DNA of 40,350 nucleotides. Origin: Prosthecobacter sp. (GTDB lineage Bacteria > Verrucomicrobiota > Verrucomicrobiia > Verrucomicrobiales > Verrucomicrobiaceae). Under the pieces are notes generated by a model that worked only from the letters and a program-made list of their open reading frames with translations, had not been told where the DNA came from and did no database searches. How positions within the stretch are numbered: the stretch's first letter is position 1; each line of letters starts with the position of its first letter. The stretch lies in assembly GCF_029946185.1 (NCBI RefSeq), contig NZ_JAQSEA010000138.1, positions 1 to 40,350 of the forward strand. Reading direction: 5' to 3'. Position numbers and translations under genes: made by a program. Below are positions 4,906-29,388 of the stretch, piece by piece.

Positions 4906-5318
4906 AGGGTGTCGAGAATATCATGCGCTTTGCTGACGCGATGCATCGGCGGCACGGGTGGTGGCAGGTTGGCCAGCGTGGCGCGGCGGCGCATGCGGGT
5001 GAAGACGTAGAGATTGATGAAGTGCATGCCGCCGAGCATGAGGAGCACGACGCCCATCTTGCCGCTGAGCAACTCGAACACGCCGCGTGCCCCGGCGATC
5101 TCCTCAGTGGTTTTGAGATACAGCGAGACGAAGCCGATGTTCACAAGATAGAAGCCGACGACGAGCAGGTGATTGACGCTGTCGGCGAGTTCCGTGTTTC
5201 CGTGGAAGCAATCGACGAGGAAGATGCGGCCGCTTTTGTGAAGAGTGCGAGCCACCCAGACCGTCATGCTGACGGCAAGGATGAGATAGAGGGTGTAGCT
5301 GATGACGGTCTCGTTCAT
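4902..5318 (-). CDS. Small membrane protein linked to desaturase, unknown function
   Basis: A 138-residue protein. The ATG at 5318 overlaps the desaturase TGA (ATGA), and the upstream extension is antisense-looking and rejected. Three hydrophobic stretches are visible: residues about 5-25, 48-68 (LLVVGFYLVNIGFVSLYL) and 84-103 (VVLLMLGGMHFINLYVF), followed by a cytoplasmic basic and proline-rich tail (RMRRRA..PPPVPPMHR). It carries conserved-looking polar residues in membrane context (SVNHLL, GGMHFIN). I recall similar small proteins beside DCC and desaturase genes, but know no function. Membrane partner or electron-transfer helper of the desaturase is a guess. Confidence 0.8.
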   Translation of the reverse strand: MNETVISYTLYLILAVSMTVWVARTLHKSGRIFLVDCFHGNTELADSVNHLLVVGFYLVNIGFVSLYLKTTEEIAGARGVFELLSGKMGVVLLMLGGMHFINLYVFTRMRRRATLANLPPPVPPMHRVSKAHDILDTL

Positions 5319-6247
5319 ATGGGTGTGTGGTTTGGGTTTGTGTTGAGGGGAATGAGTTCTGACCGCGCCGGCATGTCGGCGGGCAGTTTCACTTGGGTGA
5401 TCAGGCCGAGGAAATTCAGCATACGCAGCGCCCACCAGCCGGGGTCTGGCTGGGCCTGCGTGAGTCCCAGGCGTGCGGATTCGGGAAAGGCATGATGGTT
5501 GTTGTGCCAGCATTCGCCCATGGTGATCAGCCCGAGGTGCGGGATGTTGTAGCCCTGCACCGCATGCCCTTGCAGATGCCAGTCACGCTGGCCGGTGTTG
5601 TGCGCGAAGTAGCCGATGAGCCAGTGACCGATCAGCGAAACCACAATGCGCACCGAAATGCCCCACACGACCCAGCCGATGCCGCCGATCAGATAAAACA
5701 ACACCGCATAGGGCCCCTGCTGCAGCATCCAGGTACGCTCCAGCATCTGGTAAAAGCGGTCCTCACGCACCTCACGCTCGATCTCAAACTGCGGCGGATG
5801 CTTCAGGCGCAGCTTGCAGTGGAGCTGCCAGAGAGCATCACGCCAAATGGGCCGTTGGTCGATGTAGAACAGATGGCAGGCCGGTTGCCGCTGCGCCCAG
5901 TCGCGAATGTCATGCAGATAGAGCATGGCAAAGGGCCCGCCCATGCCAACGACGGTGCCTAGATGCACCAGCAGATGCTCCAGCCAGCGCGGACAGTTGA
6001 AGCTGCGGTGAATCAGCAGACGATGCAGACCCACCGTATGGCCAAGGCACAAGGTGAGCACCGTGAAGGCGCCTGACATCAACACAGCCCCCGTGCTGAT
6101 GGTTAGCCAGCCACCCATAAGCGCGATGCCCAGATGCGTGGTGAACCACAGCGATTTCACCTGACTCCAGACGATCTCGCCTTCCAGCGGATTCGTCTCA
6201 TCACAAGCCGGGCGCATGCGGCGGACTTGGAGTGGAGCGGTGTTCAT
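5315..6247 (-). CDS. Fatty-acid desaturase (membrane di-iron family)
   Basis: A 310-residue integral membrane protein from the ATG at 6247. It has the first histidine box HRLLIH in the setting GHTVGLHRLLIHRSF and the last box HNNHH in GECWHNNHHAFPESARLG, both diagnostic of acyl desaturases, plus paired transmembrane segments around them. The middle box is atypical: where HxxHH is expected the protein has HDIRDWAQRQPACH, a form I associate with a bacterial subgroup. It should introduce a cis double bond into acyl chains of lipids, adjusting membrane fluidity, using oxygen and an electron donor. It follows a GbsR/MarR regulator by 56 nt and overlaps the next gene by 4 nt. A palindrome sits in the gap upstream. 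Confidence 0.9.
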   Translation of the reverse strand: MNTAPLQVRRMRPACDETNPLEGEIVWSQVKSLWFTTHLGIALMGGWLTISTGAVLMSGAFTVLTLCLGHTVGLHRLLIHRSFNCPRWLEHLLVHLGTVVGMGGPFAMLYLHDIRDWAQRQPACHLFYIDQRPIWRDALWQLHCKLRLKHPPQFEIEREVREDRFYQMLERTWMLQQGPYAVLFYLIGGIGWVVWGISVRIVVSLIGHWLIGYFAHNTGQRDWHLQGHAVQGYNIPHLGLITMGECWHNNHHAFPESARLGLTQAQPDPGWWALRMLNFLGLITQVKLPADMPARSELIPLNTNPNHTPI

Positions 6248-6261
6248 GGCGGTAGTATATT

Positions 6262-6275
6262 CTGAATTTTCAGTT
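6262..6275. promoter_or_regulatory. Candidate operator upstream of desaturase
   Basis: CTGAATTTTCAG (6262-6273) is a 5-bp inverted repeat with a 2-nt centre, lying 15 nt before the desaturase ATG in an AT-rich gap. Its minus-strand reading contains AACTGAAAAT (6266-6275), which recurs upstream of the regulator gene at 6838-6847. A TATACT-like hexamer on the minus strand lies between it and the ATG. The inference is that the GbsR/MarR-type product binds here; this is not shown by sequence alone. Confidence 0.45.
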
Positions 6276-6303
6276 ATTTGTGAAACATATAAGCATGAAA
6301 AGA

Positions 6304-6825
6304 TCAGCCGAGGAGGCGCATGGCCCACTGGAGTGCGGAGGCGTGCTTCATGGAGATCACGGTGTCGGCGACTTTGACACCGAAGCTGAGGAATTCGTCG
6401 AGGTCCTGCATCTGCTGGTGGAAGTCCTTGCCTGGGCCCACGGCTTCGTCCTTCGTGCGGGCGGCGCAGTCGCGCAGCAGATTGATGGCGGGCTCGATCT
6501 CGCGGCGTTTGCGCTCCTTCGAGATGGTGATGAAAATCTTCCAGACGTCCTTTTCGGCCTCAAAGTACTCCTTGCGATCCCCCTTCTTGGTGATGATGCG
6601 CACGAGGTTCCAGCCGACGAGGTCTTTCAAATTGGTGTGCGCATTGCCACGACTGATTTCGAGCCGCTCCATGACATCGTCCGTGCACATCGGCTCCGGG
6701 GCGGTCATGAGCAGAGCGTGAATCTGGGCCATGGTGCGGGGGATGCCCCATTGCGTGCCGAGCGAACCCCACTGCACCACGAATTCCTCGCGGGCTTTTT
6801 CCCATTCTGGTAGTTCTTTGCTCAC
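6304..6825 (-). CDS. GbsR/MarR-family transcriptional regulator
   Basis: A 173-residue protein with a winged helix-turn-helix. The line IPRTMAQIHALLMTAPEPMCTDDVMERLEISRGNAHTNLKDLVGWNLV at about residues 27-75 matches GbsR-type MarR proteins (helix-turn-helix core SRGNAHTNLKDL). The C-terminal half is long and helical, consistent with a dimerisation arm. It is the first gene of the minus-strand run leading to the desaturase and membrane proteins, so it probably controls them and itself. The name GbsR reflects the fold family only; there is no choline or betaine gene nearby. No metal or redox cysteines stand out, so the signal sensed cannot be guessed. Confidence 0.85.
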   Translation of the reverse strand: MSKELPEWEKAREEFVVQWGSLGTQWGIPRTMAQIHALLMTAPEPMCTDDVMERLEISRGNAHTNLKDLVGWNLVRIITKKGDRKEYFEAEKDVWKIFITISKERKRREIEPAINLLRDCAARTKDEAVGPGKDFHQQMQDLDEFLSFGVKVADTVISMKHASALQWAMRLLG

Positions 6826-25251: not shown

Positions 25252-25309
25252 TATGAGGAAGAATCAGACGTTGAAAAGACTTCGCTCCACTCACGTTCAA
25301 TCCGTACTC

Positions 25310-26599
25310 ATGATCCGAGCCCTGCTCCTCTTTATCGCTCTCTTGACCTTCACGGTCAAAGCCGCCGATCTCTCCGTCGCTGCTTATCCCTCGATTCAGG
25401 AGGCCCTGAATGCGAACCCGAACCGCATGCTCTTTGTGCCAGCGGGAGACTATGTGATCACTGAGAAGATCCGCATTCGTGGCGAGCGCAGCGGGTTGTT
25501 TGGTCCCGGGCGCATCATTCAGCAGAGCGCAGACCAGCCTATCATCGAAATCGAAAACGCGACGGGTGCGGAGATTCGCGATCTGACATTGACGCGGCCT
25601 GAAGGAAAGATGGAGAGCCGCAACGAAGGCATCCTCGCTATCAAATGCCGCGACCTCGTGCTCTATAATGTGCGCGTCATTGACAACCGCAGCCCTGCCG
25701 GTGCCATCACCGTGCGTGAGAGCAAGGACACGCGCATCAGCCACTGCCTCGTGCGCAACTACATGCGCGTGAGCATTGATGACCGTACCCAGAGCACGGA
25801 CTGGGGCTATGCCTTCAACTGCACCGACGGCACCGGCATTAGCGTGAGCTACAGCACCGGCACGCTCGTCGAAGGCAACCGCGTCATTGAGGACAATTTC
25901 GTTCCGACTCAGGAAGTGAAGGCCAAATACAAGCTGGGCGATTATGTGAAGAAGAACGCCGTCAAAGGCGCCATCATGAGCCAGCAAGCCTGGGACGCGA
26001 ACTACACCGACGCCTGGCAGCAGGGCTCCGGCATCGTGATCAATGCCCCGGAGGTGAACGACCTGACACGGGTGATCGGCAACCACATCGAGAACGCCGC
26101 GCAGGGTTTGGACATCCACGCGGACCACGTCATCGTCTCGCAGAACATCATCACCAATGCCTTCATCGGCATGAAGGCCATGCATGGCTCACGCAATGTC
26201 CTCATCACCGGCAATCAGTTTGTCCGAAACTCACTTTGGGCCATCGGCCTCATGCCCGGTGCCGCTGCGCACCCCGCCACCGACGACAAACCCGAGAACG
26301 CCGACGGCGGCTCCATCATCAGCAACAATATCATCTCCGACTTCGGCCACGGCGACGCCCACTGGATCTGGGGCGATGAACGCTCCCCCATCAAATTCGA
26401 CACCGGCCAGCAGCCTGACGATCCGCCGCTCACGGATGTCATCATCACTGGCAACGTCATCCACAGTCTCGGCAAGCCCCGCTACAAATACGCCGTCATT
26501 ATCCCCGGCGGCCCGAATGCGCCGCGGGGTCTGCATTTCTCGAACAACCTGTTTCATCCGGGGACAGAAGGCGTGTGCAACACGGAGCTACCAGAGTGA
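25310..26599 (+). CDS. Secreted right-handed parallel beta-helix protein
   Basis: A 429-residue protein. The ATG at 25310 starts a signal peptide (MIRALLLFIALLTFTVKA); an in-frame extension to 25253 is rejected. The mature part opens with YPSIQEALNANPNRMLFVPAGDYVITEKIRI, the usual start of pectate-lyase-like beta-helices, and continues in repeating coils such as GAEIRDLTLTRP, CRDLVLYNVRVIDN, GTLVEGNRVIED, HVIVSQNIITNA and DVIITGNVIHSL. Such proteins bind or cleave polysaccharides outside the cell; no catalytic set can be picked out. It fits the polysaccharide theme of the neighbourhood. The stop precedes a family 2 repeat by 16 nt. Confidence 0.88.
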   Translation: MIRALLLFIALLTFTVKAADLSVAAYPSIQEALNANPNRMLFVPAGDYVITEKIRIRGERSGLFGPGRIIQQSADQPIIEIENATGAEIRDLTLTRPEGKMESRNEGILAIKCRDLVLYNVRVIDNRSPAGAITVRESKDTRISHCLVRNYMRVSIDDRTQSTDWGYAFNCTDGTGISVSYSTGTLVEGNRVIEDNFVPTQEVKAKYKLGDYVKKNAVKGAIMSQQAWDANYTDAWQQGSGIVINAPEVNDLTRVIGNHIENAAQGLDIHADHVIVSQNIITNAFIGMKAMHGSRNVLITGNQFVRNSLWAIGLMPGAAAHPATDDKPENADGGSIISNNIISDFGHGDAHWIWGDERSPIKFDTGQQPDDPPLTDVIITGNVIHSLGKPRYKYAVIIPGGPNAPRGLHFSNNLFHPGTEGVCNTELPE

Positions 26600-26615: not shown

Positions 26616-26791
26616 AAGTACGACAGGCACTCTTGCCTGTCGGTCAGCGGCACCGCCAATCTCCAGATAGGCACCGAGTTTCAAATTGACTGACAAAAGC
26701 GTCAGATTGCCGGGGCGACCTGACAGTGTGACTTGCAAGCTGTTGGTTTCAGCGGAGCGCTGACCGACAGACAGGAGTGTCTGTCGTACTT
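26616..26791. repeat. REPIN-like element (family 2) with 34-nt terminal inverted repeats
   Basis: The left end (26616-26649) and right end (26758-26791, minus strand) are 34-nt copies with three differences. Each begins AAGTACGACAG and folds into a 9-bp stem with a 4-nt loop, CTCT or CTCC. Two of the three differences are a compensatory G:C to A:T swap within the stem, so the hairpin is being conserved. The 108-nt interior has no ORF. GTAC takes the place of GTAG of family 1. Confidence 0.75.
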
Positions 26792-26820: not shown

Positions 26821-26972
26821 CACTACCGTCGAAACTCACTGAACCGCACCTTCAGCTTGTCTTCGAGCTGGGTGAACTGCCATTTCTCCTTGGGCGTGAT
26901 CAGGGCGAGTGACAGGCCCTTCTTCCCGGTGCGAGCGGTGCGGCCGCAGCGATGGGTGTAGTATTCGAGCTG
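26821..26972. repeat. Direct repeat, copy A (helicase 3' end)
   Basis: 152 nt align without gaps to 28161-28312, with about 17 differences counted by eye (roughly 89% identity). Both copies begin at CACTACC just past the helicase stop and end where the coding homology ends. They flank the YhcG gene in direct orientation with a period of 1340 nt. Confidence 0.85.
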
Positions 26973-26976
26973 CCGG
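26823..26976 (-). pseudogene. C-terminal fragment of a DEAD-box helicase gene
   Basis: About 50 codons read QLEYYTHRCGRTARTGKKG then EKWQFTQLEDKLKVRFSEFRR to a stop, nearly the same as the last 50 residues of the intact helicase encoded 1340 nt further on. Homology stops abruptly at about 26973; farther upstream the frame is unrelated. There is no N-terminal domain, no promoter and no start, so this is a duplicated or displaced gene end rather than a gene. Confidence 0.85.
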
Positions 26977-27039
26977 AGTGAGCGGTGATTTGCAGATGTT
27001 TTCAAATGGACGATGATGGCATGTCCGCCAATGTGAAGG

Positions 27040-28131
27040 ATGCCGAAAAAGCTCCAGCCAGTCTCTGCCCAGAGGAAGACTGCTCCTGCGACATTGTTGC
27101 TCGCCGACATTCGCAGTCTCATTGTCTCCGCCCGCGGGCAAGTATCACGAGCAGTGGATGCGGGATTGGTCACACTCTACTGGCACGTTGGCCGGCGGAT
27201 CCATCAGGATATCCTCCGACAAAAACGGGCGGAGTACGGGGCGGAGATTGTCGCTACACTGGGGACACAATTGGAAAGCGAATTTGGGAGAGGCTGGAGT
27301 GTCAGGAATCTTCACCGGATGATCCGTTTTGCAGAAGTATTTCCTGACAACCAGATTGTGACCGCACTGCGGTCACAATTGGGCTGGACGCACTTTCGTC
27401 AGATCATACCAATCGACGCCCCACTCAAGCGAGACTTCTACGCCGAGATGTGCCGCATCGAGAACTGGAGCACACGAACGCTTCAGCACAAGATCAACGG
27501 CATGCTTTTCGAGCGCACCGCGCTTTCCAAGAAACCAGACCATCTCATCAAGCAGGAATTGAAAGCCCTGCGTGAGGAGGACAAGATGACGCCTGATCTG
27601 ATCTTCCGTGACCCTTACATCCTCGATTTCCTGGGGCTTAAAGACACCTATGCCGAGAAGGATCTGGAATCTGCCATCCTGCGCGAAATCGAGAGTTTCA
27701 TCCTCGAACTGGGCATCGGCTTCGCCTTCCTAGAACGCCAGAAGAGAATGCAGATTGATGCACGTGATTACTACCTGGACCTGCTCTTCTACCACCGGAA
27801 GCTCAAGCGGCTCGTGGCCATTGACTTGAAGCTTGGCGAGTTTGAGGCAGCAGACAAAGGCCAGATGGAGCTGTATTTGAACTGGCTGAAACAACATGCC
27901 ATGGAAGCTGGTGAAAAGCCGCCGCTGGGCATGATCCTTTGCGCCGGCAAGAGCGATGAGCACGTGCAACTGCTGGAACTGGCCAAAAGCGGCATCCATG
28001 TTGCCAGCTACTGGACCGAATTGCTGCCAAAAAAGCAACTGGAGCAAAAGCTCCATGATGCCGTCTTGAAAGCGCGATCCCGCCTACGCGAAAAACCGGC
28101 CAATCCTACCCGAAAAAGGCCGTCAGCCTGA
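27040..28131 (+). CDS. YhcG/DUF1016 family PDDEXK nuclease-domain protein
   Basis: A 363-residue protein. The N-terminal DUF1016_N region (residues about 20-180) shows YWHVGRRIHQDIL, AEYGAEIVATL, SVRNLHRMIRFAEVFPD and LGWTHFRQIIPI. The C-terminal PDDEXK-like nuclease domain (about 185-345) has DLIFRDPYILDFLGL, LELGIGFAFLERQKR, YYLDLLFYHRKLKRLVAIDLKLGEF (catalytic Asp and D-x-K, with Asp where many relatives have Glu) and ADKGQMELYLNWL. Family members are found in defence islands and mobile contexts; the biochemical target is not known. The only early ATG (27040) has GAAGG directly touching it. The gene sits alone between two copies of the helicase 3' end, opposite in strand to the helicase. 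Confidence 0.9.
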   Translation: MPKKLQPVSAQRKTAPATLLLADIRSLIVSARGQVSRAVDAGLVTLYWHVGRRIHQDILRQKRAEYGAEIVATLGTQLESEFGRGWSVRNLHRMIRFAEVFPDNQIVTALRSQLGWTHFRQIIPIDAPLKRDFYAEMCRIENWSTRTLQHKINGMLFERTALSKKPDHLIKQELKALREEDKMTPDLIFRDPYILDFLGLKDTYAEKDLESAILREIESFILELGIGFAFLERQKRMQIDARDYYLDLLFYHRKLKRLVAIDLKLGEFEAADKGQMELYLNWLKQHAMEAGEKPPLGMILCAGKSDEHVQLLELAKSGIHVASYWTELLPKKQLEQKLHDAVLKARSRLREKPANPTRKRPSA

Positions 28132-28160
28132 AGGGCGCAGCACAAGATACCTCCTGTACC

Positions 28161-28312
28161 CACTACCTCCGAAACTCACTGAACCGCACCTTCAGCTTGT
28201 CTTCCAGCTGGGTGATCTGCCATTTCTCCTTGGCATCAATCAGCGCGAGTGACATGCCTTTCTTCCCGGCGCGAGCGGTGCGGCCGCTGCGGTGGGTGTA
28301 GTATTCAAGTTG
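28161..28312. repeat. Direct repeat, copy B (helicase 3' end, intact gene)
   Basis: This is the 3' end of the intact helicase gene plus two bases beyond its stop codon; it aligns without gaps to 26821-26972. See that entry for differences. Confidence 0.85.
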
Positions 28313-29293
28313 ATCAGGAAGCTGGTGGTGGATGACGAAGGACAGATCCGCCACGTCAATGCCGCGTGCGGCCACATCCGTGGCGACGACGAACTGCACG
28401 CGCTGCTTTTTGAAGGCGCGCATGACTTTGTCGCGCTCCTTCTGCATGAGATCGCCCTGCAGCACATCCACGGGCAGGCCGAGCTGGGCGAGTTCCTCAT
28501 ACAGCTCCATGGCACCGGCCTTGGTGCGGCAGAAGATGATGCCGCGCCGCTCCTTCTGGCGCTGGAGGAAGTCAAAGATGTAGGCGGTCTTCTGGTCGCG
28601 TTTACACAGGGCAAAGCGGTGGTCGATGTCGCGGTTCACCACATTCGCCTGATCAATCTGGATTGAGTGCGGGTTGGCGGACATGCTGCCCTTGATGAGG
28701 TCTTGGATTCCCGCCGGGAAAGTCGCGGAAAAGAGCCAGGTACTGCGCCGCATGGCCGCGAGCTTGAGGATTTCTGTGAGCTGCTTCTTGAAGCCCATGC
28801 TCAGCATCTCATCCGCCTCATCCAGCACCACATAGCGGACAAATTCCAGCGTCAGCGCGTCACGCTCGATCAAGTCGAGCAGCCGGCCCGGCGTGGCGAC
28901 GACGATGTGCGTGGGGCGCTTCAGCGCGTCCGTCTGGCGGTCGATGTTGTCCCCGCCGCTGACCACTTCGATGAAGATTTTCTCAGTATATTTGGTGAAG
29001 CGGAAAAGCTGTTTGCCGATCTGCTTGGCCAGCTCACGCGTTGGCGCGAGGACGAGCCCTTGGATGTCCCGGTGCTTGGGGTTCATCTTGGTCAGCAGCG
29101 GCAGCCCAAAGGCGGCGGTTTTGCCGGTGCCGGTCTGGGCCTGCGCGATGAGATCGCTGCCGTCTTTGAGCAGAAACGGGATGACTTTGGACTGCACCGC
29201 CGTTGGGGTGACGATTCCCAGCTCCTCCAGACCACGAATCATCTCCGGTGGGATTCCGAGGGCGGCAAAAGGATGGGGGGCGGTTTCTGACAT
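28163..29293 (-). CDS. DEAD-box RNA helicase
   Basis: A 376-residue ATP-dependent RNA helicase. I chose the ATG at 29293 because ACAGGGG precedes it and the N-terminus (MSETAPHPFAALGIPPEMIRGLEELG) fits the Q-motif region; the ORF also opens at 29347. Motifs: AQTGTGKT (about 52-59), APTRELA, TPGRLLD, LDEADEML, FSATFP, FCRTKAGA, TDVAARGID and HRSGRTARAGKKG. It lacks the long basic tail of RhlE or DeaD and ends shortly after the RecA2 domain (KLKVRFSEFRR). It probably acts in RNA remodelling, ribosome assembly or mRNA turnover. It is divergent from the esterase gene over 95 nt. Confidence 0.95.
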   Translation of the reverse strand: MSETAPHPFAALGIPPEMIRGLEELGIVTPTAVQSKVIPFLLKDGSDLIAQAQTGTGKTAAFGLPLLTKMNPKHRDIQGLVLAPTRELAKQIGKQLFRFTKYTEKIFIEVVSGGDNIDRQTDALKRPTHIVVATPGRLLDLIERDALTLEFVRYVVLDEADEMLSMGFKKQLTEILKLAAMRRSTWLFSATFPAGIQDLIKGSMSANPHSIQIDQANVVNRDIDHRFALCKRDQKTAYIFDFLQRQKERRGIIFCRTKAGAMELYEELAQLGLPVDVLQGDLMQKERDKVMRAFKKQRVQFVVATDVAARGIDVADLSFVIHHQLPDQLEYYTHRSGRTARAGKKGMSLALIDAKEKWQITQLEDKLKVRFSEFRR

Positions 29294-29388
29294 CCCCTGT
29301 CTTCCATCACGATGGGCCAGAATGCCAGTAGAATGAAACATGGACAAATCCTCAGGGAGAAGCGCGTTGCATCAGGACTCCCTCTGCC

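Follow-up and report, generated by a model that had tools for sequence, protein, structure and literature searches.

In this work we describe a lone YhcG gene flanked on either side by a DEAD-box helicase 3' end in Prosthecobacter sp. (contig NZ_JAQSEA010000138.1; the window, to which all positions refer, is the whole stretch of 40,350 nt that was analysed), and the best explanation, which we consider probable, is that a one-gene unit was inserted there and that its insertion left a long target duplication. We observed the duplication, the empty sites in relatives and the recurrence of the same outcome at other genes, and we infer that the duplication arises at insertion and that YhcG, as the sole gene of the unit, takes part in it. 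The YhcG/DUF1016 proteins are described as widespread and without known function in the part of PMC1189080 considered here. If YhcG genes move alone and leave datable scars, they would rank with the smallest bacterial mobile units, and it would be possible to test their movement directly.

The direct repeat lies at 26821-26972 and 28161-28312, and its two copies are 152 nt long, gap-free and 88.8% identical according to BLAST (E ~1e-52); the repeat finder gave the same boundaries and 89% identity, which bears out what an earlier note, made from the letters of this DNA, had said of the repeat. The right copy, on the minus strand, is the 3' end of the intact helicase gene (28163-29347, minus strand; Pfam DEAD and Helicase_C), the target gene, and the left copy, also on the minus strand, is an orphan helicase 3' end made up of 147 nt of coding sequence including the stop codon plus 5 nt. 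This orphan end codes for the last 49 helicase residues, its frame is open and it has six replacements compared with the intact end. The inserted unit is the 1188 nt between the copies (26973-28160, plus strand, with borders drawn from the repeat ends), which comprise a 67-nt leader, the YhcG gene (27040-28131, plus strand, 363 aa) and a 29-nt trailer. YhcG has the DUF1016_N and YhcG_C PD-(D/E)XK domains according to Pfam, PADLOC and a predicted model, and its matches to PF17761 (155.4 bits) and PF06250 (158.3 bits) are both above the Pfam gathering score. The candidate label PDC-S02 that PADLOC gives to it is the one basis on which YhcG may be regarded as a putative antiphage defence gene. 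All the frames of at least 80 aa between the repeat copies are YhcG itself or frames overlapping YhcG or the repeats, and the antisense frame 26823-27173 had no match in the Pfam search; on these grounds (frames of at least 80 aa and Pfam) the earlier claim that YhcG is the sole cargo and that there is no integrase holds for the interval between the copies. To the left of the orphan end, between it and a beta-helix gene (25253-26599, plus strand), there is also a 34-nt inverted repeat (26616-26649 and 26758-26791, 91% complementary). We rejected it as part of the inserted unit, as it lies outside the direct repeat and belongs to a REP-like family, with 48 matches to its region (26616-26791) in this genome.

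A helicase match was found in all 48 searched genomes of the genus, with an ortholog of at least 70% identity in 37 of them, this genome counted. None of the 18 relatives whose surroundings were compared carries YhcG at the helicase locus, and in seven of the 18 (G009, G015, G026, G035, G036, G019 and G041) the beta-helix gene, the left flank of the empty site, is directly beside the helicase. When the orphan end was searched against 29 other helicase loci, 25 matched with one match each and four had no match at 1e-5, that is, a second helicase end was seen in no relative with a matched helicase locus. Because the relatives carry the helicase without YhcG and without a second end, the stretch 26973-28160 was added in this lineage, beside the helicase stop codon. 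The empty sites that the earlier note had proposed to look for are therefore present, and its reading of an insertion at the helicase gains support both from this polymorphism and from similar structures elsewhere. Among the contigs of the 18 relatives, two (G022 and G030) stop ~160 nt beyond the helicase stop codon, and these ends fall in a group II intron domain (Rfam RF00029; L015:61-138 and L013:2720-2795, with 44.1 and 53.5 bits at the G022 and G030 ends); the helicase 3' end in relatives also receives introns.

The earlier note had further supposed that the incoming DNA brought its own helicase end. According to this import explanation, which as a whole we consider unlikely, the incoming DNA came from a relative that had a helicase end of its own next to YhcG; one side of it recombined with the resident helicase and the other was joined without homology, which would make one of the helicase ends foreign. 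The orphan and the intact ends differ at 11.6% over 147 nt, which is as much as or more than between species, and this speaks for import, as does the fact that several states of the intact end match G015/G023 and several of the orphan end match others; five of the differences between both ends are states that one copy shares with particular relatives, which fits import as well. The identity to eight near relatives is 90.5-93.2% for the intact end and 84.4-91.8% for the orphan end. No branch is starred in the tree built from the 147-nt helicase ends, and forcing the orphan and intact ends together costs 8.3 log units and is not rejected (AU p = 0.13), while windowed identity along the helicase gave no clear breakpoint. 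However, import lacks a possible donor, as 0/18 helicase loci of the relatives carry YhcG, and site 109, one of three shared sites, is common to the orphan and intact ends and absent from all eight near relatives. At other loci described below, the copies are identical (L226) or sisters (L109), and copy identities range from 74% to 100%, as would be expected of ageing duplicates. The identical copy at L226 shows that such repeats can be young local duplicates.

The recurrence was surveyed at 79 loci taken from species genomes, to which 30 places in 387 genomes of the phylum were added. In the tight test, which covered 600 nt before and 500 nt after YhcG and in which duplicates of one gene and the 10 of 123 distinct YhcG loci with less than 120 nt of flank were left out, the subfamily was defined by at least 45% identity to the window YhcG. 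A flanking direct repeat was present in 16 of the 90 testable subfamily genes, at 11 targets, and in one of 23 more distant YhcG genes, with a 22-nt match, although this contrast rests on few loci. As a control, the left flank of one locus was compared with the right flank of another, and 8/621 pairs matched, all within the gene X group. A looser test with 1500-nt flanks gave repeats at 15/69 YhcG loci against 22/435 control intervals in the same DNA. The duplicated stretch ranges from 26 to about 346 nt. Of the 16 genes, one is at the helicase of the window and six, among them that of L109, are at gene X. Three more are at gene or frame starts, namely those of a type 2 IPP isomerase (L226), of hsdM (L155, 26 nt) and of a 190-aa frame (L173). 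The target is an AhpC/TSA-family gene in L180, where the cut copy is the right one, and the stretch in front of a PLD-like gene in L145; in L124, L135, L166 and L234 it is intergenic, and two of these targets (L135 and L234) look low in sequence complexity. Going by their titles, the records with repeat-flanked genes are of Verrucomicrobiota, Planctomycetota and Bacteroidota, and that of L124 is labelled Pelagibacteraceae; the E. coli yhcG has no flanking repeat. The structure thus recurs at other places, but the integration at a gene 3' end that the earlier note had in mind is not general, since four other cases duplicate the 5' end of a gene. In L161, subfamily YhcG sequence was found within a 1335-aa open frame, perhaps a fusion.

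Within the genus, the YhcG genes closest to that of the window (71-77% identity) are found not at the helicase but beside gene X, whose product (244 aa) has a family name in neither Pfam nor NCBIfam. In G022, G023, G015, G009 and G035 each YhcG is located between two copies of the gene X 5' end, with the 5' fragment before YhcG and the gene X start just after the YhcG stop codon, and in G043 and G002 no YhcG precedes gene X, which has a single 5' end. In L109, a contig of another genome, YhcG is placed as in the five genomes but with a longer repeat (346 nt, 94.8% identical), the copies of which are sisters in a weakly supported tree (86/76); the tree of the gene X locus copies has no starred branch. 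In G022, gene X is split by ~1.6 kb of other DNA (L217 reverse complement, about 5050-6665). The clearest case is L226, in which 56 identical bases counted from the ATG of the isomerase (TIGR02151) stand before YhcG and again after it, YhcG starts nine bases past the copied piece and its stop codon overlaps the restored isomerase ATG. Three related genomes have the corresponding empty site: the isomerase start is present once in each and the YhcG stretch found nothing in them by blastn. In one of the three (G436) the upstream gene is 6 nt away. At L155, the copied hsdM start supplies the start codon of YhcG. At gene-start targets, YhcG would therefore sit behind the start signals of the host gene, which it could use, while the host gene keeps a complete set.

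In our best reading, these data are accounted for as follows. The unit, YhcG with ~70 nt in front and ~30 nt behind, inserted in this lineage where the beta-helix gene adjoined the helicase, and afterwards the last 152 nt of the helicase were present on either side of it; the right copy stayed in the working helicase and the left one, being useless, probably drifted. As the same outcome is seen around subfamily members at other genes, the unit probably moves repeatedly and often leaves a long target duplication. Such a duplication might form by the filling in of a widely staggered cut, or by repair that copies DNA once a nuclease has cut. Against the insertion explanation stand the 74 of 90 subfamily genes without a repeat, the copy of just 26 nt at L155, the four intergenic targets with two that look low in complexity and, at the window site, copies that are not identical and for which neither a near-identical donor nor a near-identical target allele was found; the earlier note had itself counted YhcG genes without a flanking repeat against its reading, and the decay of a useless fragment predicts the same loss. 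A different order of events, in which a partial duplication of the helicase came first and YhcG landed between the copies later, or in which a deletion trimmed a full tandem copy, is possible in principle, with nothing direct in its favour. We judge it very improbable, as no relative has the second helicase end and the same coincidence would be needed at some ten further genes.

The YhcG genes of this subfamily have a second peculiarity, which is the presence of palindromes inside their coding sequence. In the window gene, the first in-frame dyad (27247-27271; ATTGTnnnnnCACTGnnnnnACAAT) is imperfect, with 8/12 pairs, and the second in-frame palindrome (27355-27379) has 12/12 pairs around one base and encodes IVTALRSQ(L). 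In the subfamily the first precedes the second by 108 nt, that is 36 codons, and each unit covers ~9 residues. A 25-bp palindrome with at least 11/12 pairs was present in 76/91 subfamily genes, 13/24 more distant YhcG genes and 8/360 neighbouring genes, the latter scanned over 1100 nt at most. When compared with synonymous recodings (60 each), 74 of 83 distinct segments were more palindromic (p < 0.05; mean score 10.2 vs 4.3). In a set of 85 genes, from which those without the motif expression had been left out, 90.3% of cells were paired vs 66.4% (maximum 69.5%) in 1000 column shuffles, and the covariation score was 0.220 vs 0.032 in shuffles (maximum 0.048) and 0.003-0.011 when the partner was slid 1-3 bases. 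The outer arms ATTGT/ACAAT and the centre CA-N-TG are near-fixed, and for the inner five bases there are 23 forms with perfect pairing. As an in-frame element, the palindrome passes its variation on to the encoded helix, for which we found 55 peptide forms (e.g. IVAALRRQL, IVTSLMSQL or ILHTLCAKL). Wobble pairs made up 16 of 54 inner mismatches (30% vs 14.5% expected). RNA folding, run on six stretches (that of L133 did not include the palindrome), was strong for the window palindrome (z -5.8) and gave z -0.7 for the window first dyad.

Palindromes of this type are also found outside the genes, about 60-100 nt before the start in several loci. Non-coding examples before YhcG are L109:4932-4956, L110:4904-4928 and two in L043, 94 and 71 nt before the start, and the one in L110 is identical to the second in-gene palindrome. 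The genus pattern ATTGTNNNNNCANTGNNNNNACAAT occurs at 14 places in 8/48 genomes, 10 of them inside YhcG matches, three beside one (G041) and one in G038, and its reversed control was found nowhere in the 48 genomes; a REP-type dispersed repeat has many extragenic copies per genome, and neither these 14 places nor the 1-6 per E. coli genome given below qualify as such. The three of G041 are close together beside the YhcG match (G041:C2:181572-181698) and have similar cores.

In E. coli K-12, yhcG contains three in-frame units 39 nt (13 codons) apart and a perfect one lies 16 nt after the stop codon. In the alleles fetched from other E. coli, both arms change together (e.g. E686 and SWHEFF_69), and strain 122 is without two of the units. 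A 34-base probe made from the K-12 palindrome matched 4386 of 5426 genomes, at 1-6 places in each (median 3) and at none on plasmids, and inspection of the best place of 25 records suggests that all of these places are at yhcG or DUF1016 genes. In two E. coli genomes (L291 and L292) yhcG is missing at this place; gltD and nanQ are neighbours there, separated by a palindrome of this type, and that of the L291 junction is ATTCGCCAGACAGTGTCTGGCGAAT, and it is either a target or a remnant.

These palindromes could be self-keeping, that is, template switching during replication would copy changes from arm to arm in a tolerant helix, with no function. Template-switch repair of near-palindromes is established, the arms change together even between E. 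coli alleles that are ~97% alike outside that block, and where the protein fixes a codon position, the position paired with it can become fixed too. This explanation has a sizeable chance of being right, if well below even. On the other side, the type is also present outside coding sequence, both upstream of YhcG and after the E. coli stop codon, a palindrome as good is found in just 8/360 neighbouring genes, and the arms within one gene are more alike than across genes (0.65 vs 0.49; 0/2000 permutations, not corrected for kinship).

The alternative is that the palindromes are read by YhcG itself. In the predicted model, an EndoMS-like nuclease occupies residues 200-325 (5gke and 2vld; Z 12.9 over 103-111 residues). 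The N-terminal domain, predicted alone with a pLDDT of 89.9, gave ParB, Spo0J and Noc as the first 11 rows of the fold comparison (Z 7.9-9.4), after which Z drops to 6.5 and below; a Z under 13 can reflect an arrangement that is common in helical domains, and the ParB-type values are under 10. Foldseek E-values were 0.2 at best, and the sequence profile had no ParB match among solved structures. Like ParB and Noc, with whose DNA-binding domains the DUF1016_N model aligns best, YhcG could bind palindromic DNA, as several of the top ParB/Noc structures hold a palindromic site (parS or the Noc-binding site) going by their titles. Unlike them, YhcG has no sequence match to ParB, its N domain is joined to a PD-(D/E)XK nuclease, and a CTP-binding domain of the ParB/Noc type was not found, Pfam detecting only the two YhcG domains. 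Because the N domain is predicted to resemble ParB/Noc, which bind palindromes, we consider the palindromes as putative YhcG sites.

At the gene X locus, allele L106 is at least 88% alike to L112, L113 and L117 almost throughout, but only 53-73% alike in a block of ~270 nt (alignment columns 135-405) that holds both palindromes and the N-terminal domain, and the same block pattern is seen between E. coli K-12 and E686 (47-67% within the block). Judged from these alignments, the putative DNA-binding region appears to be exchanged as a block between otherwise near-identical YhcG alleles at one locus, and likewise in E. coli. The core of the second palindrome follows residues 88-99 (partial r 0.28, 0/2000 permutations, overall relatedness allowed for), and hardly residues 124-135 (0.08). 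For the first palindrome the signal is broad (windows 40-135) and linkage could account for it. The palindromes may thus be the recognition sites of YhcG, exchanged together with the domain that reads them. More tentatively still, and with less confidence than we give to the self-keeping explanation, YhcG could be a ParB-like palindrome-reading nuclease whose sites are written in the gene of its own DNA-binding domain and exchanged with it as one block, a self-matched lock and key that would serve for self-control or for aiming the mobile unit, which would spread by cutting and by repair leaving long target duplications. The palindrome is the first concrete guess at what YhcG binds, a site that changes, is always self-complementary and is placed in its own coding sequence, and, if the guess is true, the function of the YhcG family could be tested by a simple binding assay. 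Neither in-gene palindromes nor lone mobility of YhcG/DUF1016 appeared in the titles or abstract starts that one open library gave for YhcG or DUF1016.

Some likenesses to described systems can be pointed out. PARCEL are palindromic coding repeats, tandem and of 25 residues, found in other proteins (PMC2996958, as far as the portion considered goes), and they share with the YhcG palindromes a coding DNA with dyad symmetry, an amphipathic helix and variable residues. In contrast to them, the YhcG units are not tandem 25-residue motifs but have ~9 residues and are 36 codons apart (13 in E. coli), and the text of PMC2996958 makes no mention of YhcG or DUF1016. Regarding the insertion, the site-specific integration at a gene 3' end also restores the end next to the insert and leaves an orphan end, but here the interval is without integrase, the copies vary from 26 to about 346 nt and the four other targets mentioned are 5' ends; we rejected an integrase-type insertion on the lack of an integrase and the use of 5' ends. 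Type 1 or IS-bounded composite transposons resemble this case in having a cargo gene bounded by direct repeats, but their repeats are insertion sequences and ours are pieces of a host gene, and the composite transposon was ruled out since the repeats are helicase DNA. The case also resembles that of restriction-modification genes, for which insertion with long target duplication is reported in the parts considered of PMC3031569 and PMC1643837 (citing Nobusato et al. 2000; Furuta et al. 2010). In both cases a unit without transposase is present or absent between relatives and has long direct target copies of variable length, and the window has the empty site in relatives as well as long direct copies on both sides. 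Unlike the insertions described in those parts, the unit here carries one nuclease gene, YhcG, and lacks a methyltransferase, and the pattern extends across phyla with copies that have aged to 74-100% identity. Because only YhcG lies between the copies, the YhcG insertion is a variant of the restriction-modification type and not a member of it; the pattern is thus of a described kind, and its single-gene cargo is new as far as the one open library searched goes.
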